Assembly: GCF_965363235.1 (NCBI RefSeq)
Contig: NC_134839.1
Location: 112,958,517-113,022,516, forward strand
From: Mytilus galloprovincialis
Lineage: Eukaryota; Mollusca; Bivalvia; Mytilida; Mytilidae
Direction of reading: 5' to 3'
Length of the DNA: 64,000 bases
The notes beneath the pieces were generated by a model, which worked only from the letters and a program-made list of their open reading frames with translations, was not told the DNA's origin and did not search any database. The position numbers and the translations under genes are program-made. Positions 11,086 through 43,500 of the stretch are shown piece after piece (position 1 is the stretch's first letter; each line of letters begins with the position of its first letter).

Positions 11086-11500
11086 AAAGAAGATGTGGTA
11101 TGATTGCCAATGAGACAACTATCCACAAAAGACCAAAATGACACAGAAAGTAACAACTATAGGTCACCGTACGGCCTTCAACAATGAGCAAAGCCCATAC
11201 CGCATAGTGAGCTATAAAGATCTATAAAAGGCCCCGATAAGACAATGTAAAACAATTCAAACGAGAAAACTACCGGTCTTATTTATGTAAAAAAATGAAC
11301 GAAAAACAAATATGCAACACATAAACAAATGACAACCACTGAATTACAGGCTCCTGATTTGGGACAGGCACATACATAAATAATGTGGCGGGGTTAAACA
11401 TGTTAGCGGGATCCCAACCCTCCCCCTAACCTGGGACAGTGGTATAACAGTACAACATAAGAACGAACTATAAAAATCAGTTGAAAAAGGCTTAACTCAT
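11086..11500 (+). repeat. Dispersed repeat family A, abutting the TRIM exon
   Basis: Nearly full copy: the head at 11,086, then GACCAAAATGACACAGAAAG, GGCCTTCAACAATGAGCAAA, CAGGCTCCTGATTTGGGACA, GTGGCGGGGTTAAACATGTT, and the tail GGCTTAACTCATCA. It ends about 14 bases before the CAG acceptor at 11,512-11,514, so it forms most of the sequence directly upstream of the TRIM coding exon. A polymerase III box was not found. Confidence 0.85.
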
Positions 11501-11522
11501 CATGTATTTTTCAGAAACGAAA

Positions 11523-12848
11523 ATGATGGAAGAAGAAAAGATAGAGCGACTGAGAGAAAGAATTCTCCAGTGTCCAATTTGTATGGACGAATACAACGAC
11601 CCAAGGATCCTACCATGCCATCATTCTGTTTGTTTTCAATGTCTACAAGATTTTGTTCGGCACTCTTCGTCTTCTGGTCGGCTATTCCGGTGTCCACAAT
11701 GCCGGTCAGATATATGTGTTCCGAGGGGAGGAATCAAAGACTTCCCGCCTAACTTTTATGTCAACTGTATTCAGGATGAACTTGGTTCTAAACCCTACTT
11801 TAGCACGTGTAACGTGTGTGAACGTGATTGGTTGGTCTCTCAGTATAGATGTGTGGATTGTGATATCGATATATGTAAATTCTGTATTCACGAACACAAA
11901 CTATTCAAACACGATCCCTCCAAAACTCTCAATATCATGCGTATTGAAACTGGAAACATGGGCACGGGCATGTCTTCTCAAAAACAGTGCACTGAACATT
12001 CAGAACATATTCTGAGTATGTTTTGTTCCACTTGTAACATTGCTGTCTGTATAGATTGTATCCTACAGTCACACAAGTCACATGATACATGTACACTGGG
12101 TAAAAAACTAGAACATGCAAGAGAGTTCCTACAAAAAGAAATGGATTCTTTAAACACGTCTGTTCGATCAGTGAAGAAGACAGTTGAGGAGTTGGACAAG
12201 TTGTCAACAGACATAAAAGATAACACCACGCACTGCATTAAGGATGTTCGGAAACAAGCACGTGACTTAACAAACACAATAGACCAAATCGCTGAACAAC
12301 AAGTCAAAGTTATGACAACGATTGAACTTGAGAATTTAACGCCGATTAATAACTATAAGAAGTCTTTGGTTGACTTTACGGACAAGGCTCATTCTGTTTG
12401 TCGGTTTCTAGAGGACCTACAAGAGGATGATATGAGTTTGGAACTTCTCGAGTGTTATGCTCAATACAAGAAAAATGTAGATGCTATACGAGAATCAATT
12501 CATAATAAGAATATCTCTGTTAAAAAGTTCACGTTCAAACCTGGTAAATTCTACTCCTGGAAGGATATTAATGTTTTCAGATTCGGAAGAACAAAAACAG
12601 AACCAAACGAAAAAATGTTTTTGCATGTGCCATCGAAACCGAAAAGAACAATTCGTGGAACATTGAAGACCATATTTTCTATACAAAACATTATTCTAGT
12701 CTTAGTGCCGACATTTATGTTAATAACAATAAGTAGAATATGTGCCTTAATGTCGGACGAAACGGACAAATTTCCAGACGCAATCTGTGGCTTATTTTTA
12801 TTTCTTTATATATCACTTTCTGCTGCTGTTTCTTATGTAAAGGGGTGA
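11523..12848 (+). CDS. TRIM-type RING E3 ubiquitin ligase with two C-terminal membrane segments
   Basis: A single exon encodes the protein. ATTTTTCAG at 11,506-11,514 looks like a splice acceptor, so I place the start at the ATG at 11,523 (441 codons); an ATG at 11,502 would add seven residues but lies across that acceptor. Numbering from 11,502: C3HC4 RING at 24-67 (C24, C27, C39, H41, C44, C47, C64, C67); B-box 1 at about 103-137 (C103, C106, C117, C120, C125, C128); B-box 2 at 163-194 (C163, H166, C175, C178, C183, C186, H191, H194); helical coiled-coil region about 200-330; two hydrophobic segments at about 390-416 and 427-446. There is no SPRY, NHL or filamin domain. TRIM proteins use the RING to pass ubiquitin from E2 to substrates, and the coiled coil to dimerise. 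The tail suggests a membrane-anchored ligase, recalling TRIM13/TRIM59, but with two segments; orthology is not claimed. Bivalves carry many TRIM genes. Confidence 0.9.
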   Translation: MMEEEKIERLRERILQCPICMDEYNDPRILPCHHSVCFQCLQDFVRHSSSSGRLFRCPQCRSDICVPRGGIKDFPPNFYVNCIQDELGSKPYFSTCNVCERDWLVSQYRCVDCDIDICKFCIHEHKLFKHDPSKTLNIMRIETGNMGTGMSSQKQCTEHSEHILSMFCSTCNIAVCIDCILQSHKSHDTCTLGKKLEHAREFLQKEMDSLNTSVRSVKKTVEELDKLSTDIKDNTTHCIKDVRKQARDLTNTIDQIAEQQVKVMTTIELENLTPINNYKKSLVDFTDKAHSVCRFLEDLQEDDMSLELLECYAQYKKNVDAIRESIHNKNISVKKFTFKPGKFYSWKDINVFRFGRTKTEPNEKMFLHVPSKPKRTIRGTLKTIFSIQNIILVLVPTFMLITISRICALMSDETDKFPDAICGLFLFLYISLSAAVSYVKG

Positions 12849-15861: not shown

Positions 15862-18800
15862 CTAGAGGCTCTAAAGAGCCTGTGTCGCTCACCTTGGTCT
15901 ATGTGAATATTAAACAAAGGACGCAGATGGATTCATGACAAAATTGTGTTTTGGTGATGGTGATGTGTTTGTACATCTTACTTTACTGAACATTCTTGCT
16001 GCTTACAATTATCTCTATCTATAATGAACTTGGCCCAGTAGTTTCAGAGGAGAAGATTTTTGTAAAAGATAACTAAAATTTACGAAAAATGGTTAAAAAT
16101 TGACTATAAAGGGCAATAACTCCTAAAGGGGTCAACTGACCATTTCGGTCATGTTGACTTATTTGTAGATCTTACTTTGCCGACATTTATTGCTTTTTAC
16201 AGTTTATCTCTATCTATAATAATATTCAAGATAATAACAAAAAACAGCAAAATTTCCTTAAAATTACCAATTCAGGGGCAGCAACCCAACAACAGGTTGT
16301 CCGATTCAGCTGAAAATTTCAGGGCAGATAGATCTTGACCTGATAAACAATTTTATTTCATGTCAGATTTACTCTTAAATGCTTTGGTTTTTGAGTTATA
16401 AGCCAAAAACTGAATTTACCCCTATGTTCTATTTTTAGCCGTGGCGGCCATCTTGCTTGGTTGGCCGGGTCACCCCACACATTTTTTAAACTAGATACCC
16501 TAATGATGATTGTGGCCAAGTTTGGTTTAATTTGGCCCAGTAGTTTCAGAGGAGAAGATTTTTGTAAAAGATTACTAAGATTTACGAACTAGAGGCTCTA
16601 AAGAGCCTGTGTCGCTCACCTTGGTCTATGTGAATATTAAACAAAGGACGCAGATGGATTCATGACAAAATTGTGTTTTGGTGATGGTGATGTGTTTGTA
16701 AATCTTACTTTACTGAACATTCTTGCTGCTTACAATTATCTCTATCTATAATGAACTTGGCCCAGTAGTTTCAGAGGAGAAGATTTTTGTAAAAGATAAC
16801 TAAGATTTACGAAAAATGGTTCAAAATTGACTATAAAGGGCAATAAATCCTAAAGGGATCAACTGACCATTTCAGTCATGTTGACTTATTTGTAAATCTT
16901 ACTTAGCCGAACATTATTGCTGTTTACAGTTTATCTCTATCTATAATAATATTCAAGATAATAACCAAAAACAGCAAAATTTCCTTAAAATTACCAATTC
17001 AGGGGCAGCAACCCAACAAAGGTCGTCCGATTCATCTGAAAATTTCAGGGCAGATAGATCTTGACCTGATAATCAATTTTACTACATGTTAGATTTGCTC
17101 TAAATGCTTTGGTTTTTGAGTTATAAGCCAAAAACTGAATTTTACCCCTATGTTCTATTTTTAGCCGTGGCGGCCATCTTGGTTGGTTGACCAGGTCACG
17201 CCACACATTTTTTAAACTAGATACCCCAATGATGATTGTGGCCAAGTTTGGTTTAATTTGGCCCAGTGGTTTCAGAGGAGAAGATTTTTGTAATAGATTA
17301 CTAAGATTTACAAAAAATGGTTAAAAATTGACTATAAAGGGCAATAACTCCTAAAGGGGTCAACTGACCATTTCAGTCATGTTGACTTATTTGTAAATCT
17401 TACTTTGCTGAACATTATTGCTGTTTACAGTTTATCTTTATCTATAATAATATTCAAGATAAATAACCAAAAACAGCAAAATTTCCTTAAAATTACCAAT
17501 TCAGGGGCAGCAACCCAACAACAGGTTGTCCAATTCATCTGTAAATTTCAGGGCAGATAGATCTTGCCCTGATAATCAATTTTACTACATGTCAGATTTG
17601 CTCTAAATGCTTTGGTTTTTGAGTTATAAGCCAAAAACTTAATTTTACCCCTATGTTCTATTTTTAGCTGTAGCGGCCATCTTGGTTGGTTGGCCGGGTC
17701 ACGCCACACATATTTTAAACTAGATACCCCAATTGTGATTGTGGCCAAGTTTGGTTTAATTTGGCCCAGTAGTTTCAGAGAAGAAGATTTTTGTAAAAGA
17801 TTACTAAGATTTACGAAAAATGGTTAAAATTGACTATAAAGGGCAATAACTCCTAAAGGGGTCAACTGACCATTTCAGTCATGTTGACTTATTTGTAAAT
17901 CTTACTTTGCTGAACATTATTGCTGTTTACAGTTTATCTCTATCTATAATAATATTCAAGATAATAACCAAAAACAGCAAAATTTCCTTAAAATTACCAA
18001 TTCAGGGGCAGCAACCCAACAACGGGTTGTCCGATTCATCTGAAAATTGCAGGGCAGATTGATCTTGACCTGATAAACAATTTTACCCCATGTCAGATTT
18101 GCTCTAAATGCTTTGATTTTTGAGTTATAAGCCAAAAACTGCATTTTACCCCTATGTTCTATTTTTAGCCATGGCGGCCATCTTGGTTGGTTGGCCGGGT
18201 CACGCCACACATTTTTAAAACTAGATACCCCAATGATGATTGTGGCCAAGTTTGGTTTAATTTGGCCCAGTGGTTTCAGAGGAGAAGATTTTTGTAATAG
18301 ATTACTAAGATTTACAAAAAATGGTTAAAAATTGACTATAAAGGGCAATAACTCCTAAAGGGGTCAACTGACCATTTCAGTCATGTTGACTTATTTGTAA
18401 ATCTTACTTTGCTGAACATTATTGCTGTTTACAGTTTATCTTTATCTATAATAATATTCAAGATAAATAACCAAAAACAGCAAAATTTCCTTAAAATTAC
18501 CAATTCAGGGGCAGCAACCCAACAACAGGTTGTCCAATTCATCTGTAAATTTCAGGGCAGATAGATCTTGCCCTGATAATCAATTTTACTACATGTCAGA
18601 TTTGCTCTAAATGCTTTGGTTTTTGAGTTATAAGCCAAAAACTTAATTTTACCCCTATGTTCTATTTTTAGCTGTAGCGGCCATCTTGGTTGGTTGGCCG
18701 GGTCACGCCACACATATTTTAAACTAGATACCCCAATTGTGATTGTGGCCAAGTTTGGTTTAATTTGGCCCAGTAGTTTCAGAGAAGAAGATTTTTGTAA

Positions 18801-21800
18801 AAGATTACTAAGATTTACGAAAAATGGTTAAAATTGACTATAAAGGGCAATAACTCCTAAAGGGGTCAACTGACCATTTCAGTCATGTTGACTTATTTGT
18901 AAATCTTACTTTGCTGAACATTATTGCTGTTTACAGTTTATCTCTATCTATAATAATATTCAAGATAATAACCAAAAACAGCAAAATTTCCTTAAAATTA
19001 CCAATTCAGGGGCAGCAACCCAACAACGGGTTGTCCGATTCATCTGAAAATTGCAGGGCAGATTGATCTTGACCTGATAAACAATTTTACCCCATGTCAG
19101 ATTTGCTCTAAATGCTTTGATTTTTGAGTTATAAGCCAAAAACTGCATTTTACCCCTATGTTCTATTTTTAGCCATGGCGGCCATCTTGGTTGGTTGGCC
19201 GGGTCACGCCACACATTTTTAAAACTAGATACCCCAATGATGATTGTGGCCAAGTTTGGTTTAATTTGGCCCAGTGGTTTCAGAGGAGAAGATTTTTGTA
19301 ATAGATTACTAAGATTTACAAACTAGAGGCTCTAAAGAGCCTGTGTCGCTCACCTTGGTCTATGTGCATATTAAACAAAGGAGTCACAAATGGATTCATG
19401 ACAAAATTGTATTTTGGTGATGGTGATGTGTTTGAAGTTCTTACTTTACTGAACATTCTTGCTTCTTACAATTATATCTATAATGAACTTTGCCCATTAG
19501 TAACAGAGAAAAATATTTGGTAAAAATTTACATAAATTTACCAAATTAATGAAAATTGTTAAAAATTGACTATAAAGGGCAATAACTCCTCAAGGGGTCA
19601 ATTGACCATTTAGGTCATGTGGACTTATTTGTAGATCTTACTTTGATGAACATTATCGCTGTTTACAGTTTATCGCTATCTATAATAGTATTCAAGATAA
19701 TAACCAAAAACAGCAAAATTTCTTTAAAAATTACCAATTGGAGGGCAGCAACCCACCAACCGGTTGTCCAATTCATTTGAATATTTCAGGGCAGATATAT
19801 ATTGACTTGATTAACAATTTAACTCCTTGTCAGATTTCCTCTAAATGATTTGGTTTCAGAGTTATAAGCAAAAAACTACATTTTACCCCTGTTCTATTTT
19901 TAGCCGTGGTGGCCATCTTGGTTGGATGGCCAGGTCATCGGACACATTTTTCAAACAAGGTACCTCAAAGATAATTGTGGTTAAGTTTGAATTAATTTGG
20001 CCTAGTAGTTTCAGAGGAGAAGATTTTTGTAAAAGATAACTAAGATTTACGAAAAATGGTTAAAAATTGACTATAAAGGGCAATAACTCCTAAAGGGGTC
20101 AACTGACCATTTCGGTCATGTTGACTTATTTGTAAATCTAACTTTGCTGAACATTATTGCTGTTTACAGTTTATCTCTATCTATAATAATATTCAAGATA
20201 ATAACCAAAAACGGCAAAATTTCCTCAAAATTACCAATTCAGGGGCAGCAACCCAACAACAGGTTGACCGATTCATCTGAAAATTTCAGGGCAGATAGAT
20301 CTTGACCTGATAAACATTTTTACCCCACATCAGATTTCCTCTAAATGCTTTGGTTTTTGAGTTATAAGCCAAAAACTGCATTTTACCCCTATGTTCTATT
20401 TTTAGCCGTGGCGGCCATCTTGGTTGGTTGACCGGGTCAAGTCACACATTTTTAAACTAGATACCCCAAAGATGATTGTGGCCAAGTTTGGATTAATTTG
20501 GCCCAGTAGTTTCAGAGGAGAAGATTTTTGTAAAAGATTACTTAGATTTATGAAAAATGGTTAAAAATTGACTATAAAGGGCAATAACTCCTAAAGGGGT
20601 CAATTGACCATTTCGGTCATGTTGACTTATTTGTAAATCTAACTTTGCCGAACATTATTGCTGTTTACAGTTTATCTCTATCTATAATAATATTCAAGAT
20701 AATAACCAAAAACAGCAAAATTTCCTCAAAATGACCAATTCAGGGGCAGGAACCCAACAACGGGTTGACCGATTCATCTGAAAATTTCAGGGCAGATAGA
20801 TCTTGACCTGATAAACATATTTACCCCATGTCAGATTTCCTCTAAATGCTTTGGTTTTTGAGTTATAAGCCAAAAACTGCATTTTACCCCTATGTTCTAT
20901 TTTTAGCCGTGGCGGCCATCTTGGTTGGTTGACCGGGTCACGCCACACATTTTTTAAACTAGATACCCCAATGATGATTGTGGCCAAGTTTGGTTCAATT
21001 TGGCCCAGTAGTTTCAGAGGAGAAGATTTTTGTAAAAGTTAACGACGACGGACGACGACGGACGACAGACGACGGACGACGACGACGACGACGGACGCCG
21101 GACGCAAAGTGATGGGAAAAGCTCACTTGGCCCTTCGGGCCAGGTGAGCTAAAAATGGTTAAAAATTGACTATAAAGGGCAATAACTCCTAAAGGGGTCA
21201 ACTGACCATTTCAGTCATGTTGACTTATTTGTAAATCTTACTTTGCTGAACATTATTGCTGTTTACAGTTTATCTTTATCTATAATAATATTCAAGATAA
21301 ATAACCAAAAACAGCAAAATTTCCTTAAAATTACCAATTCAGGGGCAGCAACCCAACAACAGGTTGTCCAATTTATCTGTAAATTTCAGGGCAGATAGAT
21401 CTTGCCCTGATAATCAATTTTACTACATGTCAGATTTGCTCTAAATGCTTTGGTTTTTGAGTTATAAGCCAAAAACTTAATTTTACCCCTATGTTCTATT
21501 TTTAGCTGTAGCGGCCATCTTGGTTGGTTGGCCGGGTCACGCCACACATATTTTAAACTAGATACCCCAATTGTGATTGTGGCCAAGTTTGGTTTAATTT
21601 GGCCCAGTAGTTTCAGAGAAGAAGATTTTTGTAAAAGATTACTAAGATTTACGAAAAATGGTTAAAATTGACTATAAAGGGCAATAACTCCTAAAGGGGT
21701 CAACTGACCATTTCAGTCATGTTGACTTATTTGTAAATCTTACTTTGCTGAACATTATTGCTGTTTACAGTTTATCTCTATCTATAATAATATTCAAGAT

Positions 21801-22207
21801 AATAACCAAAAACAGCAAAATTTCCTTAAAATTACCAATTCAGGGGCAGCAACCCAACAACGGGTTGTCCGATTCATCTGAAAATTGCAGGGCAGATTGA
21901 TCTTGACCTGATAAACAATTTTACCCCATGTCAGATTTGCTCTAAATGCTTTGATTTTTGAGTTATAAGCCAAAAACTGCATTTTACCCCTATGTTCTAT
22001 TTTTAGCCATGGCGGCCATCTTGGTTGGTTGGCCGGGTCACGCCACACATTTTTAAAACTAGATACCCCAATGATGATTGTGACCAAGTTTGGTTTAATT
22101 TGGCCCAGTAGTTTCAGAGGAGAAGATTTTTGTAAAAGTTAACGACGACGGACGCCGGACGCAAAGTGATGGGAAAAGCTCACTTGGCCCTTCGGGCCAG
22201 GTGAGCT
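15862..22207 (-). mobile_element. Helentron-associated (HINE-like) element with ~500-bp tandem core
   Basis: Read on the minus strand it starts AGCTCACC, passes a hairpin (TGGCCCGAAGGGCCA) and a GAC/GTC-rich microsatellite, and ends with GGTGAGC (15,893-15,887), the 14-base stem-loop GGCTCTTTAGAGCC (15,880-15,867) and CTCTAG. The terminal GCTCACC is inverse to the subterminal GGTGAGC. The core holds about eleven ~502-bp units starting near 16,087, 16,815, 17,316, 17,818, 18,320, 18,822, 19,547, 20,054, 20,556, 21,153 and 21,655. Heads (CTAGAGGCTC) recur at 15,862, 16,589 and 19,323, and tails at about 21,040-21,150 and 22,138-22,207, so several elements have merged. Insertion is between T and T on this strand, as known for Helentrons. 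No protein is encoded; 66- and 97-codon open frames recur per unit but look incidental. Confidence 0.7.
17300..19307. repeat. Two near-identical 1,004-bp dimers within the core
   Basis: The segment from about 17,300 to 18,303 is repeated at 18,304-19,307 with no difference that I could see, and most of it again at about 21,150-22,135. Each is a dimer of two distinguishable ~502-bp units. Confidence 0.85.
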
Positions 22208-22379
22208 AAAAATTGGTTTAAAGTAAGATTTTGTCGTTGATGACGTCATGAATTTTGAAGATTTATTGCACTAGTGCAATATTAGAATTTATTGCACGCT
22301 AACTTTTGGTTACGTTCTGTGGGAAATATTATATTGCTATACAATAATATCATATACATTAGAGGCTATTTTTATAGGT

Positions 22380-25300
22380 GACTGACACTGATTTAGTAGA
22401 GAAATTGATTGTTGTTGTATGATGTACTTCTAAACAGGAATTGGTTGGTGTTGTTACTTCATAATACTAAATGATAGCTTTATTGGTTGGTGATGTGTGG
22501 TGTACTTCTGAACAGTAATGGTAGCTTTATTGGTTGGTGTTGTACGATATACTCTTGAACAGGAATGGTAGCTTTATTGGTTAGTGTTGTACGATATACT
22601 CTTGAACAGGAATGATAGCTTTATAGTTTGGTAGTGTATGAAGTTATTCTAAACAGGAATGGTAGCTTTATTGGTTGATGTTGTATGATATACTCTTGAA
22701 AAGGAATTGTAGCTTTATTTGTTGGTGGTGTTTGAAGTTCTTCTAAACATTAATGGTAGATTTATTGGCACCAATGGTGGTGTCTGATGTATTTCCAAAC
22801 AGGAATGGTAGCTTTTGTATGATATACTCTTGAACAGGAATGGTAGCTTTATTGGTTGGTGGTGTATGATGTACTTCTAAACAGTAATGGAGGTTTATTG
22901 GTTTGTGGTAAATGGTGTACTTCTATACAGGAAAGGAAGTTTTATTGGTTGGTGGGGTAAATCAGTAAGGGTAGCTTTATTGGTTATTGGATGCACTTCT
23001 AACACATAAATGGTAGCATTATTAGTTGGTGGTGTATGATGTTCTTCTGAACAGGCATGGTAGCTTTATTGGTTGGTGGTGTTATTCTAAACAGTAATGG
23101 TAGCTTTATTGGTTCGTGGTTTAAAATGAACTTCTAAACAGGAATGGTAGCTTTATTGGTTGGTGTTATATGATGTACTAATAAACAGAAATGGAAGCTT
23201 TATTGGTTGGTGGTGTATGGTGTACTTCTATACAGGAATGGTAGCTTTATTGGTTGGTGGGGTATGGTGTACTGCTGTACAGGAATGGAAGCTTTATTGG
23301 TTGATGGTGTATGAGGTACTTCTAAATAGGAATGGTAGCTTTATTGGTTTGTGGTGTATGGTGTACTTCTAAACAGGAATGGTAGCTTTATTGGTTGGTG
23401 ATGTTATTCTAAACAGTAATGGTAACTTTATTGGTTTGTGGTTTAAAATGTTCTTCTAAACATGAATGGTAGCTTTATTGGTTGGTGTTATATGATGTAC
23501 TAATAAACAGAAATGGAAGCTTTATTGGTTGGTGGTGTATGGTATACTTCTAAACAGGAATGGTAGCTTTATTGGTTGGTGGTGTTATTCTAAACAGTAA
23601 TGGTAGCTTTATTGGTTTGTCGTTTAAAATGCACTTCTAAACAGGATTGGTAGCTTTATTGGTTGGTGTTGTCTGGGGTACTTCTAAACAGAAATGATAG
23701 ATTTATGGTTGGTGGTGTATGGTGAACTTCTGAGCAAGAGTGGTAGCTTTATTGGTTGGTGTTTTATGATTTACTTCTATACAGGAATGGTAGCTTTATT
23801 GGTTGGTGGTGTATGATTAACTACTGTACAGAAATTGTAGCTTTATTGGTTGGTGGTGTATGGTGTACTTTTATACAGTAATGGTAGCTATATTGGTTGG
23901 TTGTATATGATGCACTTCTAAACAGGAATGATGGCTTTATTGGTTGTTGATGTATGGTGAACTTCTGAACAGGAATGTAAGCTTTATTGGTTGGTTTTGT
24001 TTGGTGAAATTCTAAATAAAAAGGAATGGTAGCTTTATTGGTTGGTGGGGTATGGTGTACTTCTAAACAGGAATGGTAGCTTTATTGGTTGGTGGTGTTA
24101 TTCTAAACAGGAATGGTAGCTTTATTGGTTGGTGGTGTATGATGCACTTCTAACACAGAAATGGTAGCTTTATTAGTTGGTGGTGTATGATGTTCTTCTG
24201 TACAGGAATGGTAGCTTTATTGGTAAGTGTTGTATGATGTTCTTCTGTACAGGGATGGTAGCTTTATTGGTTGGTGGTACAACAAATGGAAGTTTTACAG
24301 CCCTCGCACAGTCAGCTCGGTGCCCGAAGGCGTTTGGTGAACGTTTGAATAATTTTGTGCCATCGGTCAGGAACGAGTGGTGGTCGCCATTTTGGGGGTT
24401 GCCATCTTGGTTTTGTGAGTTCTTTTTGGTTTGTTTACTATTTTGGTGTTATTTCTTCTTTCACAACGGCTGCTTTCAGGGCCAGTTTGGTCAGCTTGGC
24501 AGCCCGCTAACCTCGATGATGGAGTACTGGTAGATGAGTCGTGGACGTAGTTCTAAAGATGACAGGAAGAGTTATCAGGACCAAAGCTGTGAGGCAGTGA
24601 AATGAAGGTCAATCACCCAACACCTAGGATACAGCCCTCGGACGTTAATCGGCATAACACTCCCCATGATACAATGGTTTTGAAGTGCATGTTAACGCGG
24701 GTACGCCAACTACTACGTCTACTGTACGGCATGGATTGGTTTCTGTCATCTTAAGTAGTAAGTCGTTGATCATCTAACTGTAAACCCTCATCGAAGATAG
24801 CAGGTAAAGGAGAGCTGGCCCAGCACGTCCGTTCAGTTGTAATGACTGAGACATGACTGATTGAATGGGTTGGTGGTATATGATGCACTCTTGAAGACAA
24901 ATGATAACTTAATTAGTTGATTGTGTATGGTGTACTTTTGTTTAGGAATGGTAGCTTTATTGCTTGGTGTTGTATTCTGTACTTCTGTACAGGGATGGTA
25001 GCTTTACTGGTTGGTGGTGTAGGGTGTACTTGTGAACAGGAATGGTAGCTTTATTGGTTGTTGTTGCCTGGTGTACTTCTGAACAGGAATGGTAGCTTTA
25101 TTAGTTGGTGGTGTATGATGTACTGATAAACAGGAATGGTAGCTTTATTGGTTGTTGGTGTATGATGTACTGATAAACAGGAATGGCAGCTTTATTAGTT
25201 GGTGGTGTGTGGTGTACTTCTGTACAGGAATGGTAGCTTTATTAGTTGGTGTTGTCTGATGTACTTCTAAACAGGAATGGTAGCTTTATTGGTTGGTAGT

Positions 25301-25568
25301 ATATGATGCACTCTTGAAGACGAATGATAACTTAATTAGTTGATTGTGTATGGTGTACTTTTGTTTAGGAATGGTAGCTTTATTAGTTGGTGTTGTCTGA
25401 TGTACTTCTCAACAGGAATGGTAGCTTTATTGATTGGTTGTGTATGGTGTACTTCTGACAGGAATACTAGCTATATTCGTTGGTGTTATCAAAGGTGCTC
25501 TTGAGTGGTAATAGTAGCTTTATTGTTTGGTGGTGTGTTGTTTACTTTTGAATAGGAATGGTAGCTTT
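22380..25568. repeat. ~48-bp minisatellite array
   Basis: More than fifty variants of a unit centred on GGAATGGTAGCTTTATTGGT followed by TGGTGGTGTATGATGTACTT and CTAAACA. Length variants (GTTATTCTAAACAG) interleave with the standard unit. The array is interrupted at 24,274-24,868. Occasional long open frames are by-products. It lies just 3' of the TMC gene. Confidence 0.95.
24274..24868. mobile_element. ~0.6-kb GC-richer insertion in the minisatellite
   Basis: The array stops after GGTTGGTGGTA and resumes with GGTTGGTGGTA after about 595 bases of unrelated, GC-richer sequence. The left part (CAACAAATGGAAG...ACAGCCCTCGCACAGTC) matches a motif seen near 26,910, 48,130-48,180 and 50,040-50,160, and ACAGCCCTCG occurs again at 24,651. 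No protein, no inverted ends; class unassigned. Confidence 0.6.
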
Positions 25569-29100: not shown

Positions 29101-32100
29101 CAAGAGTTTTCTACCATGTCATGTTTTGACCTTGACTTATCAACTGAACTTTTATGAACATTTTTGACTTGGAATTTCTACTAGATTAACAATAATCTAG
29201 GTTTACTTTGATTTACTGTTTCCAAGGCTGTAAAGCTTGGAAATTTTACACTTTAACTTTTGACTTATTCGAAACCCTAATTATTTCAACAATAATATCC
29301 TAATTAACATTTTCTGTAAGAAAACTTCAAATAATGAAAAAGTTCAGACTATATATACAACTTTCCTTGCAAAACCTTCTAAAATGTTACAACAAAATAT
29401 TTTCTGAGGTTTAGCTAGTTTTTTTTTAAAGCTAATACTTTGGCTTTTTTTTAAAGCTAATACTTTGTTGTGCAGTATGGATAGCAATACTGTTTAATAA
29501 AGAAATTATTATTTCACTGGCAATAAAATCAAAAAGGCATTGGAAGAAATGACATTAGACAGAAATCAACTAAGACAACCTTATTACATTTGATTGACGA
29601 GAACTCAATCTTTACTATACTATAATTTTGGAGGTCAGGCAATTAACATTAGAAATGTAAGCAAACATGTTTCTGTCTGTTATAAGCTCAAAGAGCTTAT
29701 ATGTTATGTCCTTGTTTTAGTATACTATGCTGAATTCAAATAAAGCTGATTTATTATCTCCCTTACCTTCCAACTATAGATACAGGTGCTATTATTACCA
29801 CCAGAGTTGTCAGCAGGAATCCCATGATGAATGCTGTGTTACGAGAGTGGTTTATTATCTCCCTTACCTTCCAACAACTACAGATACAGGTGCTATTATT
29901 ACCACCAGAGTTGTCAGCAGGAATCCCATAATGAATGCTGTGTTACGAGACTGGTTTATTATCTCCCTTACCTTCCAACAACTACAGATACAGGTGCTAT
30001 TATTACCACCAGAGTTGTCAGCAGGAATCCCATAATGAATGCTGTGTTACGAGACTGGTTTATTATCTCCCTTACCTTCCAACAACTCCAGATACAGATG
30101 CTATTATTACCACCAGAGTTGTCAGCAGGAATCCCATAATGAATGCTGTGTTACGAGACTGGTTTATTATCTCCCTTACCTTCCAACAACTCCAGATACA
30201 GGTGCTATTATTACCACCAGAGTTGTCAGCAGGAATCCTATAATGAATGCTGTGTTACGAGACTGGTTTATCTCCCTTACCTTCCATTGAAACATTGAAA
30301 CATTTTATTTCACTAAAGGCCTCACATGAGGCCTGATAGTACAACAATATAACAAATAAGATATAATGCATGAACAAATAATTTACAAATGCATGAATAA
30401 ATGGGAAGGTAAATATCATTTGTAAACTGACATTACAATTTACAGAACTTGGCTAAGCCAACAAGAACAAATTTATCTTTGCTGTTCATTAAATTAGAGA
30501 AACTCATAGTATTTTTAACTTTACAAATATCTGCAGGCAAAAATTTTAGCCTTTCAGCATCAAAGAAAGTACAATCATATATATAATGAAATTCATCTCC
30601 TAGCACATTGCTGTGTCATAAATCACATATTCTTTCTGATCTATCAATGCTATAAAATCTACCACATTCAATAGGTAACTTATGACTACTGCACCTATAT
30701 TTACACAAATTAATTCTTAGATTCCAACAACTACAGATACAGGTGCTATTATTACCACCAGAGTTGTCAGTAGGAATCCTATAATGAATGCTGTGTTACG
30801 AGACTGGTTTATTATCTCCCTTACCTTCCAACAACTACAGATACAGGTGCTATTATTACCACAAGCGTTGTCAGCAGGAATCCCATAATGAATGCTGTGT
30901 TACGAGACTGGTTCCATCTTTTTATGGGGGGTTTACATGTATATTTAATTATGGCATAATTCAGGAAAAAGAAAACCAGGCTAGACAAGGCACCCAACAG
31001 TGGCATCAAAGGGCAGGCTATAGTTCCTACCTGTAATGTAAGATACAGAAGACAAGTTATAATAAGTTTTTCAGACTGAAATATTTACACAAAATAGAAT
31101 TATCTTAATACTTTAAACAACAGGTGCCTGTATTGCTCATCCGTTACCTTATACTTATTCATTTATATTTCACATTGACACATTATGTGATATAATCCTA
31201 AAAGGATTTGATGGAGATGGGTTGACACTTTTTGTTGTTTTGTTTCAAATGATCTATCATAGCATTCAAGAGCATAGGCAAACATTTGATAGTTGTTCTA
31301 AATTTGTTTGTTAAGGACAGTAACTCCTAAGAATTATTTTTTGGTGGCAATGGGAAGAAGGTATATTTTGACATAATAAGCATTTTTAACTCATCAGATT
31401 TTCAATATCTATTACTGATATCAAAACATCTGACAACTTATGCATTGAAGCCTTCTGTTCTATCTTTAGCCACATGGCCATGTTGGTCGATTGCTCAACA
31501 GATCCACTTCCTGTATACAAAGTGATAGGATGTGTCGCTGGAATAGGTAACCTTTTCAGACTGGAAAATATGTGAATAGCTTGGAAAAACTATCAGAAAT
31601 ATTTGATAAGGTCAATAAAGTTCCCATAACTTCTTCGTCTGTTATCTTTCTTGGTGTTCCCAGCAGCTGTTTTCATCAACCAATTTTTCTCTTTTTGGCT
31701 CTTTGATATTTCACTCTTTCATTACAGACCATTACACACAAGGTGTAACCCAAACATTATAGGAAAAAATTACATTTGTACCCACACAATATATGAATAG
31801 GTATACATTTTTAAAATCTGAGTTATATGAAAAGAGTGGGGTAACAGAACCCAAGCAGCACCCATATCAATTACCCGTCGAGGTAGATAGAAACAAACTG
31901 AAACATAACACTAAATACCCCCAGGATGGTTCAGTTAAAGTTTGGTTAAAAATGATCCATTGATTTCAAAAGTTTTTTTTTTTTATCTAAATAACAAAAT
32001 GAAATTATTATTATACCCAGACTAATCCCTGTCTATAGATCAAAACCAGTACAGCTGCTGATATATTAAACTCTGATTTCTCTTTGGTATATTTATACTT

Positions 32101-35100
32101 TGCAATACTCATTGCAGTACTAACAACAGCCTGAAAAGTATAAACAGAAACTACAACTACTAACAATTACTATAACAAAAACAAACAACAGCTCCAAAAA
32201 CTTGAATTGCTCTCCGGGTTCTAAAGGTAGAAGTATACTCATCAGGACGTTTTTATTCCATTTCACTGCATCTGTTTTCACAATAAAATCAAAATATTAT
32301 TTCCCTGGGTGTTTCAAAAAATATAATTTATTGTGCAAACTTTGTTTTATGTAAGTATTCTGTGTTTATTGAAGTATCTTTGTAGGATTTAAAAGCTATG
32401 CTGATCAGACCATTATATCTTGTACTGTTTTGTATCTTGAATCAAAAATGATTTGATTTGATAAATCCTTCTAGATTTAGTCCTATAGTATAAAAATACA
32501 TTTTACAATGTTTTATTATTTTTGTCTTTTATGAATTAAATCTAAAACAAGTGAAAGTGTGAGCTATTGCTCACTGATGATACCCCGCCCCAATATCTTG
32601 GTAGACAGGAAGTTGATGAGTGATGAATCTGAAAACGCATCACACAGTATAGCTGACTTATAAACTCTGAAACCAAATTTCAGAAATCATTGTATTGTAG
32701 TTCCTGACAAAAATGCGACCAAAATTATTCATTGGATGGATGGACAAATGGATGGATGGACTGACAGATGGCAGACAGAGGTAAAACAGTATACCCCCAC
32801 TTTTTAAAGCAGAGATAAAATAAAAAAATCTGATTGCTGTTTATTGAGTCAATTTAACAAGGCACCATAGGACAGCAATATTAAAGTATACAGAAGTTAC
32901 TTACATGCACAATTGTATCCATAATAACCAGTTTGTAAAACTCCTGGCCAATCACTGTCCCTGTACATCCTCCTGTTAACTGGAAAATAAGTATTTTAAT
33001 AATGTCATTGTATACCAGTTATGAAATTTATGGCAAAACATCAAAATATGCACTTACAATACATTTCATTGCTTTTTGAACATTTCAATCAATTAAAACT
33101 TTTTTTCACTGTTTGAATTTCTGCAACACTATCAAATTTGTACATTCATTTTGCCATACACAGCCAAACTACAGAGCTCCAAAGTTTCCAGCACTTTCAT
33201 CAACGTTATTCTGTAGGGTAGTGTGGAAATTATTTATGTACCGTAAATACATAATCTTGATTCCTGTACAACTGAGAGAGTATGACCATCTGATTAGATT
33301 TTAATTTCCTAAATATTTTGTGCAGAATAAAATCAAACCTTTTCACCTGTTTGCTCAACATGTGTTGGAAATGAGGATGCATACATTTTTGTCACGTGAT
33401 GATGGAAGTCGCATGACAGATTGGTCTGAAAACCTTTTTCTGGAACTGACCTTATAAGAGCAAACAAGTAATCCATACTAAGGATAAAGATTCTTCGCAG
33501 CGTAATACTCAGCTCTCTCCCCACTCACATAATGTTCTATAAGATATGACTTACTTCTGTAGAGTTTTTGTAGAGCGTGACAATTAGAGCAAACAAGTTA
33601 GCCATTCTTAGGATAAAGATTCTTGACAGTGTAATACGCAGCTCTTTCTTCCCACTTGAATAGTGTTCTAGATAACCTGGTAACTGAAATAAAAACATAT
33701 GTAAGAGGCATTATAATAAATGATAATTCCTTCTCTCATGCAATAATAAAAGAGAGTGTCCCTTTTTAGATTCTTGAATAATATAATGAAATAAGAAGAA
33801 GTGGTATTATTGCCAATGAGACAACTCTTAACAAGTGACAAACTATATGTCAGAGTACAGCCTTCAGCAATGAGCATAACCTTAACTGTATAGTAAGGTT
33901 GGAATGACAAATGTAAAACAATTAAATCAAGATAACTAATGATCTATGTACAAAAAAAAAAAAAAATGGAAAAAACAAATATGATATAGCAGCAAATTAC
34001 AACCACTAAATTACAGGCCCCTGGCTGCATGGCTAATGGGGGCAGAGCAGTCATCTATGCAGTATGGGCTTTGCTCATTGTTGAAGGCCGTACTCTAACC
34101 TTTAGTTGTTAGTTTTTGTGTCATGTGGTCTCTTGTGAAGAGTTGTCTCATTGGCATTCCTACCACATCTTCTTTTTTATCTTACAATGACAAAAAATTC
34201 TGAAAGGAAATTGAGGATTTTCATCTGATTTACAGAATATTGAAATAAAATCAATACCATAGAAACAATCAGTGGTATTATGATGTTGATCAAACTGAAG
34301 ATTATAGATGGTAGGTACACGCTCAGGAAATCTTTACTGTCAGAAAACTTCTCATACAGTACCAGCCAAACAATGGTAGCACATCCTCCACCAATCAAAA
34401 TACTGAAAAATATAGATAAATATCACATGGGAGATACAGTCAGGAAATCTTTACTGTCAGAAAACTTCTCATAGAGTACAAGCCAAACAATGGTAGCACA
34501 TCCTCCTCCAATCAAAATACTGAAAAACATATATAAATATCACATGGGAGATACAGTCAGGAAATCTTTACTGCCAGAACACATCTATAAATCTTATTCA
34601 CCTCAAATGTATGAGACAACAATTTTTTTCTTTTACCGTATAGCTTACCAAATGGTACATACAATGTCAATTGAACATACCTTGAACATTAACCACACAA
34701 TTTTCTTATATATACATAGAGAATATCATATAGCTTTTTCAATATCGCATCCGTATCAACCCGAGACACCAATATAATCCCAAGAGCTCTGCTCGAGGGA
34801 TTATATTGGTTGAGGGTTGATATGGTGTGTGATATGGAAAAAGCCATATCATATACACTTTATTATATACATAAATTTCAAGTAGATGTTTTTTATGTGA
34901 CATGACGTCATACAGATAAGGAGGATTGAAGTGACGTCATACAGATTATAGGTTTGACATGACGTCATACAGATTAGGGTTTTGATAAAGCTTTTGCAAC
35001 AGTGACTGCAATCGATGACGTGACGTCATACAGATTAAAGGTGTGATAAAGCTTTTGCAACCATGCTGATATCGATATCATCACGGGTGGCTGATACAGT

Positions 35101-40584: not shown

Positions 40585-43500
40585 CGACGCCAACGTGATA
40601 GCAATATACGACGAAAATTTTTTCAAAATTTGCGGTCGTATAAAAACATTCATTGGTATGAATTCTTCAATTAGGTATTACAAATGTATTTTATTATGCC
40701 CACCTGCCTTTTAAACCTGGGGAGCTTATTGTTTTACCCCTGTATGTCCATCCATCCCTTTGTGGTTATATAGTCATTCAACATAATTTCTCCTACAGTT
40801 TGAATCCTAGAAAGTTTTCACTTGGCTGTCTGTATGTACATATATTGGAGGTGTGAATGTGGTCAGGGTTTTGATTTTTATTCATGTTCATATATGCCCT
40901 TTTGGGAGATAGTTGAACTTTGTCATTTTTGGGGTGTAAGCAGTTAAATGTTGTAGTTCCTGATAAATCCTCCTACAGTTTAATGCTATGAAGTTTTCAC
41001 TTTGCTGTCTGTTGTACATATTTTTCATCTGTGGGGGGAATCTATTGTCTCCCAGACACAATAATATCTCAATCTGATGTCAGATCAACATATCTTAGTC
41101 AGATCAACCCTAATTATTGAGTAGAAATACCAGATGTATGAAGATGAATAACTTTCAGTTTGGAGGAGTTATCTTACCTTTAAATTTTAGAAAATCTTAC
41201 TTATTTAGGATAACAAACAGACTACCAAAGTATGTCAACAGTATCATCATTAAATAGGCCAGCGCAATGTGATAAACTCCATCAATGACCTCTGGATAAC
41301 CTCCATAAAACAGCCAGCTCTCCCTAATGGCTCCCTATAAATATAAAAAAAAATCATGCCATCTATAAGGTCAACTTCATTCTTTTCATAATTCTCTCCA
41401 GACAGTTACAATTATCAACAGCAATGGTAAATTGCTTTTTTTACTTTTTTTTGTTTTTTGTTTTTGTTCTTTTATATATATCATGATGATCTTAAGGATT
41501 TTTCGCATCTTACAAAGTAAAGTTAGCTAGATCTTTAATTTTTTTCCCCTACATTTTTATGGTACCCTATAGTTACCTCTCCATCAATGAAGTTCATCCA
41601 TTCTAGTTCTTGTGAGATGTTGTTGTAGTTAAATGTTACAGCTGTTGGTATGACAACCACTGACAACCAGACTAATGACAGGAACAAGTTTAACAGGATA
41701 ACCCATCTAACAAACACAAATAATGAACCAATACTAGAACCAAAATTACCTACAAAACAAGGGAGATAATCAAACACAAATAAAACATCAATACTTGAAC
41801 CAAAATTACCTACAAAACAAGGCAGCTAATCAAACACAAATAAAACATCAATACTAGAACCAAAATTACCTACAAAACAATGCAGCTAATCAAACACAAT
41901 TAAAACATAAATACTTGAACCATAATTATCTACATTACAATAGCAGCTGATCATAAAAAAATAAAGCATCAATGCTTGAACTAAATTTACCTACAAAACA
42001 ATAGCAGATGATCATACTAGGTAACTATTACAGGAAAATAAACTAGAACATAATGTATTTAGCTACAGTAGCCTACAGTTATATAAATGGGGGGTTTAAT
42101 GTCCAGTGGCAAATGTACAGTTATATCAATAGGGGGTTTAATGCCCAGTGGCAAATGTACAGTTATATAAATAGGGGTTTAATGTCCAGTGGCAAATGTA
42201 CAGTTATATCAAGACAAACCATATGTTGATGTAATATAACCTTGCTTTGTACTGGACTAACATGCTGTTTCAGATTGTCAACATGCTAATTCAAAAGGTA
42301 ACAGTATGCAGGAGGATTAATTAACTGATCACAACACTTTATTCCACCTCTGGCAGACCAGTCTTTACTCTCAGTCCTAAATGTTATGTCATTAATATCC
42401 CAGGAGGTAGTTATAATTTTCTTTGGTTTAACCTTTCCAGGGTAAAATCCTCCTCCATTTTTCTAAATAAAATGTTGACAAGGAGATTTATGGTATCATT
42501 ACTTATGAGACAACTATTCACCAGATTCCAGATGACATGGATTCTAGCATCTATACTATAGGGCATTGTCTGGTCTACAACATTTACCAAGATCCAATAA
42601 ATCAACTTAAACAGCAACAGACAATGACAGAGAAAATTTCAAAATTCATCTCTAAAATACTTTTATTCATGAAAAATAACCATGAATAATGATTGGATTA
42701 AATTTATCAAATAATAAACAGAACTTTTTGTATTATTTATAGTTCCATGCTCATTCACTTACTTTCTATATACTTGATATAAGACTTGAAGATAGGATTT
42801 TCTGTACCTTTGATTTTCCACCTTCTATACCATACCTTAAAACAAACATGTAAGTCTGCTTTAACAAACTCTTTTATATACTAATTAGATGTCTGAAATA
42901 TCATAGATATTATCTCATATTCGAGTGGAATGATCTTTCTTTAAACATTGACAATGTTCCATATTTTAACATCTGTTATTAACTCATATCAGCGATCATG
43001 AAATTGTGAGTGACCTTCATTAGAAGTTTAATGTTAATAGAATGTATAACCTAAAGGCAACTCATTGAAACATGAACTATAGTTGTTTATTACTGCATCA
43101 TTTGGTCTATTGTGGAGAGTTGTCTCATCGGCAATCATACCACATTTTCTTATTTTTATATTCAACTTATTAATATATATCAATGATTATTGCTTTATAA
43201 AATGTAGGCTACATAAACTTTGTATATCTATTACCAATCATAAAATAAAGAATAAGTATGAACAAACAGTTCATGTTATTTATGTATTTACCATAGGGCA
43301 AAGACAAATTACCTTGATATCATGTTTAAGTAGCTGGTACATAGTCATCTTGGCTCTGATGTTAGTATTCTTTTTTGGTGAGTACCTGTTATAAAAGCCA
43401 TAATATCTTAAATAGTTCTAATGAGTTATACTGTGAGGTACTACTGATAAAAATTCCCGTCCTCACATCAACAAATATTACATATCAAACATACATCACA

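Follow-up and report, generated by a model that had tools for sequence, protein, structure and literature searches.

When the end of an exon, splice donor included, is repeated several times in a row, are the additional donors read by the splicing machinery, or is the array a repeat that the gene simply carries? This question is raised by a TMC (transmembrane channel-like) gene of Mytilus galloprovincialis, which lies on the minus strand of the 64,000-nucleotide stretch of contig NC_134839.1 analysed here (the window) and in which one exon end has been amplified in tandem.

The TMC gene and its 104-bp array

Nine exons of the gene were placed by means of reading frames, splice signals and phases, and none of the nine contains an in-frame stop. 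Joined, they give a protein of 434 residues which lacks the N-terminal exons, the 3′ end and probably one middle exon. This protein matches the Pfam TMC profile PF07810 with E = 9.4e-19 and 68.4 bits, as compared to a curated cut-off of 25, over profile positions 1-110 of 111, and it also matches the C. elegans chains TMC-1 (2e-21) and TMC-2 (1.2e-14). Exon phases are consistent at seven of the eight neighbouring pairs, and the mismatch at the eighth, across a 3.7-kb gap, probably fits a missed exon at that place. The exon bearing the array starts in phase 0, ends two bases into a codon and is flanked by introns of 986 and 1,929 nt, the first base of the next exon being 28895; its translation (VGTIACPLMPLL...APVSVVVG) aligns to residues of about 746-807 of C. 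elegans TMC-1 (PDB 7usw).

The array consists of seven units of 104 bp (101 bp in unit 7), each comprising the last 88 nt of the 206-nt exon, the donor GGAAG|GTAAGG and the first 16 intron bases. Unit 1 is the genuine exon end, while units 2-7, the decoys, are intronic, and the donor is intact in all seven units (GGAAGGTAAGG). The period of 104 is detected as two rows of 5.3 and 1.8 copies, respectively, which are separated by a 437-bp insert. With gap columns left out, the units are 94.9-100% identical to each other in pairwise comparisons, whereas one unit, placed without gaps on 30 mononucleotide-shuffled versions of 3.6 kb of flanking DNA, matched at no more than 49 of 104 bases.

A preliminary description of the locus had proposed a seven-unit, 104-bp repeat of the 3′ part of the exon, its donor and the first intron bases, with six units downstream of the functional copy, and this is borne out. 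The 104-bp spacing of the supposedly consecutive units was likewise found, but unit 2 is split by the insert, giving a spacing of 541 bp there. That nearly all units keep a donor turned out to be an understatement, with the restriction that the insert cuts the donor of unit 2 off from its exon part, and the span given as 29735-30910 and the repeated "exon half" were measured as 29751-30912 and as 88 of 206 nt, respectively.

The 104-bp array exists. How many copies it has is less certain, because units 5 and 6 are identical, an identity that also speaks for an assembly artefact in which the true copy number would be one or two. Such an artefact is nevertheless highly improbable, given that six kinds of unit (1, 2, 3, 4, 5/6 and 7) can be distinguished by changes of their own, that the insert is present in one of them only, and that older, diverged arrays lie at other exons of the same gene (Table 1).

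Table 1. Repeats and associated features of the TMC gene (positions within the window)
Feature	Position	Strand	Description
TMC exon (exon 13 of the preliminary description)	30825..31030	-	206 nt; acceptor TTACAG|GTAG, donor AAG|GTAAGG
104-bp array, unit 1	30809..30912	-	functional exon 3′ end; last exon base 30825; 16 intron bases
104-bp array, unit 2	30268..30808	-	split by 437-bp insert; donor after 30281; three fewer intron bases
104-bp array, unit 3	30164..30267	-	donor after 30180
104-bp array, unit 4	30060..30163	-	donor after 30076
104-bp array, unit 5	29956..30059	-	donor after 29972; identical to unit 6
104-bp array, unit 6	29852..29955	-	donor after 29868
104-bp array, unit 7	29751..29851	-	3-bp deletion; donor after 29767; continues into rest of intron
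437-bp insert	30286..30722	-	gene orientation; TGGAA at both sides; splits unit 2
Partial exon copy, 82% identical	33454..33539	-	copy of exon 33683-33555, just downstream of that exon's donor; donor not spanned
117-bp array, about 2.3 copies	34323..34586	-	acceptor TTTTTCAG and 5′ part of exon ILIGGGCATIVWL...
60-bp array, 5 copies	41707..42014	-	acceptor ending TGTAG and exon start

Origin of the units and of the insert

At the unit junction, ...GAGATAATAAA from the first intron bases is joined to CCAGTCTCG... from the middle of the exon, and the sequence outside the array is AATAAATCAG on the far side of unit 7 and GGAACCAGTC ahead of unit 1. A tandem duplication, probably at the short imperfect match of AACCAG against AATCAG, may have fused GAGATAATAAA to CCAGTCTCG in this way. 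Unequal exchange would later have raised the copy number to seven, and it would leave variants common to neighbouring units, such as those that unit 2 has in common with unit 3 and unit 3 with unit 4. Finally, the 437-bp element would have inserted into unit 2. As the insert resides in a decoy unit, its insertion came after at least one duplication, and we infer the order of duplication, unequal exchange and insertion. The array would thus be of a type of duplication that is tolerable to a gene because one copy of the junction remains whole: with exon body and donor both retained at unit 1, the gene could keep working.

Relative to units 5/6, unit 1 has two substitutions, both synonymous, and the decoy units have five non-synonymous and two synonymous ones (shared changes counted once) as well as two length differences, namely the 3-bp deletion of unit 7 and, in unit 2, an intron part that is shorter by three bases. 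Small as these counts are, the pattern would agree with unit 1 being coding and the decoys being non-coding. Neither the donor nor the intron bases of any unit carry a substitution. Conservation of the donors was considered as a sign of selection and rejected, since at such identity fewer than one of the six decoy donors would be expected, by a count made by hand, to have been hit. The units were also considered as separate small exons, which was rejected on the grounds that only 21 nt, without a pyrimidine tract, lie between the GT and the next CCAG. Nor was intron gain by tandem duplication seen in the array, the units being without an acceptor of their own with a pyrimidine tract. The reading that we favour, with a probability of about 0.72, is that of a neutral minisatellite which began with a duplication over a splice junction and happens to span that junction.

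The 437-bp insert gave no match in Pfam, and Rfam gave zero matches in the window. By eye, the insert is LINE-like and resembles the end of a non-LTR element; the window contains no further copy of it, apart from two pieces of 25 and 32 bases that look like chance matches. It contains an AATAAA beginning at 30309, 28 nt before the donor of unit 2 and thus near where cleavage would fall, so that the row of donors might be thought to bind U1 snRNP and thereby to stop this signal from truncating the transcript. In vertebrates, U1 is reported to silence proximal poly(A) signals (PMC6946686). However, the position of the insert in a decoy unit places the duplication earlier, which therefore did not arise for shielding, and a single donor would suffice for it, which makes this explanation extremely unlikely.

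The insert could also have been recruited as an exon itself, an acceptor within it combining with the donor of unit 2 to give a new, stop-carrying exon. With its CTGCAG site as acceptor, the first exon base would be 30530 and the new exon, reaching as far as donor 2, would have an ordinary length of 250 nt; if joined to the preceding exon, it would meet a stop at codon 72. Two further AG sites of the insert, at 30452 and 30332, have 13 pyrimidines in 20 and would speak for such a recruitment, but the 30530 site has 10, as compared to 12-15 at the nine functional acceptors, and we consider recruitment of the insert very unlikely.

Choice among the donors

In terms of splicing, the neutral minisatellite most likely arose as a repeat by chance and is passed over by the splicing machinery. 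Exon definition would pair the acceptor of the exon with the nearest downstream donor, the six decoys would leave with the intron, and we propose that the array is tolerated because the first donor is picked in this manner. In PMC9225289, five exon-defined minigenes with two donors of identical strength are described, and in each of them splicing took place from the upstream donor alone, a rule obtained with transfected minigenes of another animal group than the present host. The introns flanking these minigene exons measured 365 nt, and 250 nt is given there as the mark of exon definition, a mark that both introns around the array exon exceed. Taken together, the upstream-donor rule and the long flanking introns suggest that donor 1 would be favoured over the decoys.

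The exon, when extended past donor 1, reads through one codon across the donor and then into TAA, which is codon 70 of the exon. Together with a unit length that is not a multiple of three, this upholds the earlier statement that the extra donors should not give a longer protein. The insert places all decoy donors 544 nt or more downstream of donor 1, and exons ending at donors 2-7 would measure 750-1,264 nt as opposed to 206. In turn, all seven donors of the array show a U1 pairing of -10.0 kcal/mol, the best of the nine donors scored in the TMC gene, and as the decoys are such strong U1 sites, some low-level use of them is possible.

It is from these strong donors, intact in seven of seven units, that a regulatory role might be argued: the decoys would compete with donor 1, the early stop met by the extended exon would lead to mRNA decay, and TMC output would be tuned by this poison switch, for which the two downstream repeat units that serve as donors in human IFI6 (PMC4526556) would be a precedent. 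However, the donors are as intact as the identity of the units lets one expect, the decoy exons have by now grown to at least 750 nt, and the upstream donor won in the exon-defined minigenes of PMC9225289. On balance, we regard a decoy function as unlikely.

Donor-bearing minisatellites are already known from human IFI6 (G1P3, 6-16), where Turri, Cuin and Porter are said to have described, in 1995, a minisatellite giving multiple splice donors; its repeat unit is reportedly 12 bp long, and three mRNA species are said to result. The TMC array resembles this case in that several splice donors are carried by tandem repeats located at the end of an exon. It differs in that its unit is 104 bp instead of 12 bp long and out of frame, that reading on leads into TAA, that an insert interrupts the array and that the use of its additional donors is putative. 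In a potato RdRp gene, a new intron arose through a tandem duplication that spans an intron-exon boundary (PMC4974935). Common to both cases is that genomic DNA on either side of such a boundary was duplicated in tandem together with its splice signals, but the potato duplication is acceptor-bearing, whereas the TMC array comprises six extra donor copies with no pyrimidine-tract acceptor at the unit junction. Human UBC has arrays of dual-specific AG|GT splice sites (PMC10809524), and in both genes repeats multiply splice signals, a 60-bp array of the TMC gene having AG|GTAA in four of its five units; UBC units are, however, coding and in frame, whereas the 104-bp units of the TMC gene provide a donor only. 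Among the open-licence papers listed in literature searches, none reports such arrays for a TMC gene or for mussels, as judged by titles and abstract openings.

Repeats at other exon boundaries and elsewhere in the window

Two further arrays of the gene span acceptors (Table 1). In the 117-bp array, the functional exon start is at 34402 and the decoy start at 34519; the upstream decoy acceptor, if used, would read into TGA. The functional exon start of the 60-bp array is at 41749, the decoy starts, counted by hand, are at 41809, 41869, 41929 and 41990, and the AG is kept in five of five units. The nearest of these decoy acceptors is open and in frame, and its use would add 20 residues before the first TMC membrane segment, while decoy acceptors further upstream meet a stop. 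In the units with AG|GTAA, a wrong splice would in principle be correctable by a second splicing.

Despite the presence of three arrays and a partial copy among nine exons, the notion that exon boundaries are favoured sites for arrays was rejected by a base-rate test. Between 28.7 and 42.1 kb, local direct repeats make up 21% of the sequence, and three of 18 exon boundaries lie in them as compared to a mean of 3.8 expected from circular shifts of the 18 boundary positions (P = 0.73), the background including the boundary arrays themselves. With these arrays removed from the background, 2.1 boundaries are expected, which is not significant either (P = 0.34), and a version with 17 boundaries, one donor being left out, gives the same verdict (3.6 expected, P = 0.69). 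The boundary arrays are therefore no more than would be expected by chance in a repeat-rich gene; for the genome of M. galloprovincialis as a whole, a repetitive fraction of 60.42% is stated in PMC11183127.

The suggestion of the preliminary description that the extra donors act as splice decoys or regulate retention consequently finds no support, as the intact donors are accounted for by chance at such identity, the boundary test is null and the minigenes used the upstream donor; the sequence tests do not, on the other hand, refute it. A broader version would see in the boundary arrays a splicing rheostat, in which the numbers of donors (seven) and acceptors (five and two) differ between individuals and set the share of productive TMC mRNA, and in which the 60-bp array could add an in-frame insert of 20 residues; this, too, appears very improbable.

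Seven near-identical donors and sets of five and two similar acceptors within one gene constitute a natural test of splice-site competition. Exclusive use of the site nearest to the exon body would mean that splicing in this animal is governed by exon definition; use of other sites as well would mean that tandem repeats impose a hidden load of faulty mRNA.

Elsewhere in the window, long 47-bp minisatellites extend over 22440-25568, with a strong GC skew of +0.445 in 22001-24000, and repeated blocks with near-identical reading frames, several of them about 502 bp apart, occupy 16120-22138. On the plus strand, an uninterrupted frame of 449 codons with RING and B-box domains is found at 11499-12845.
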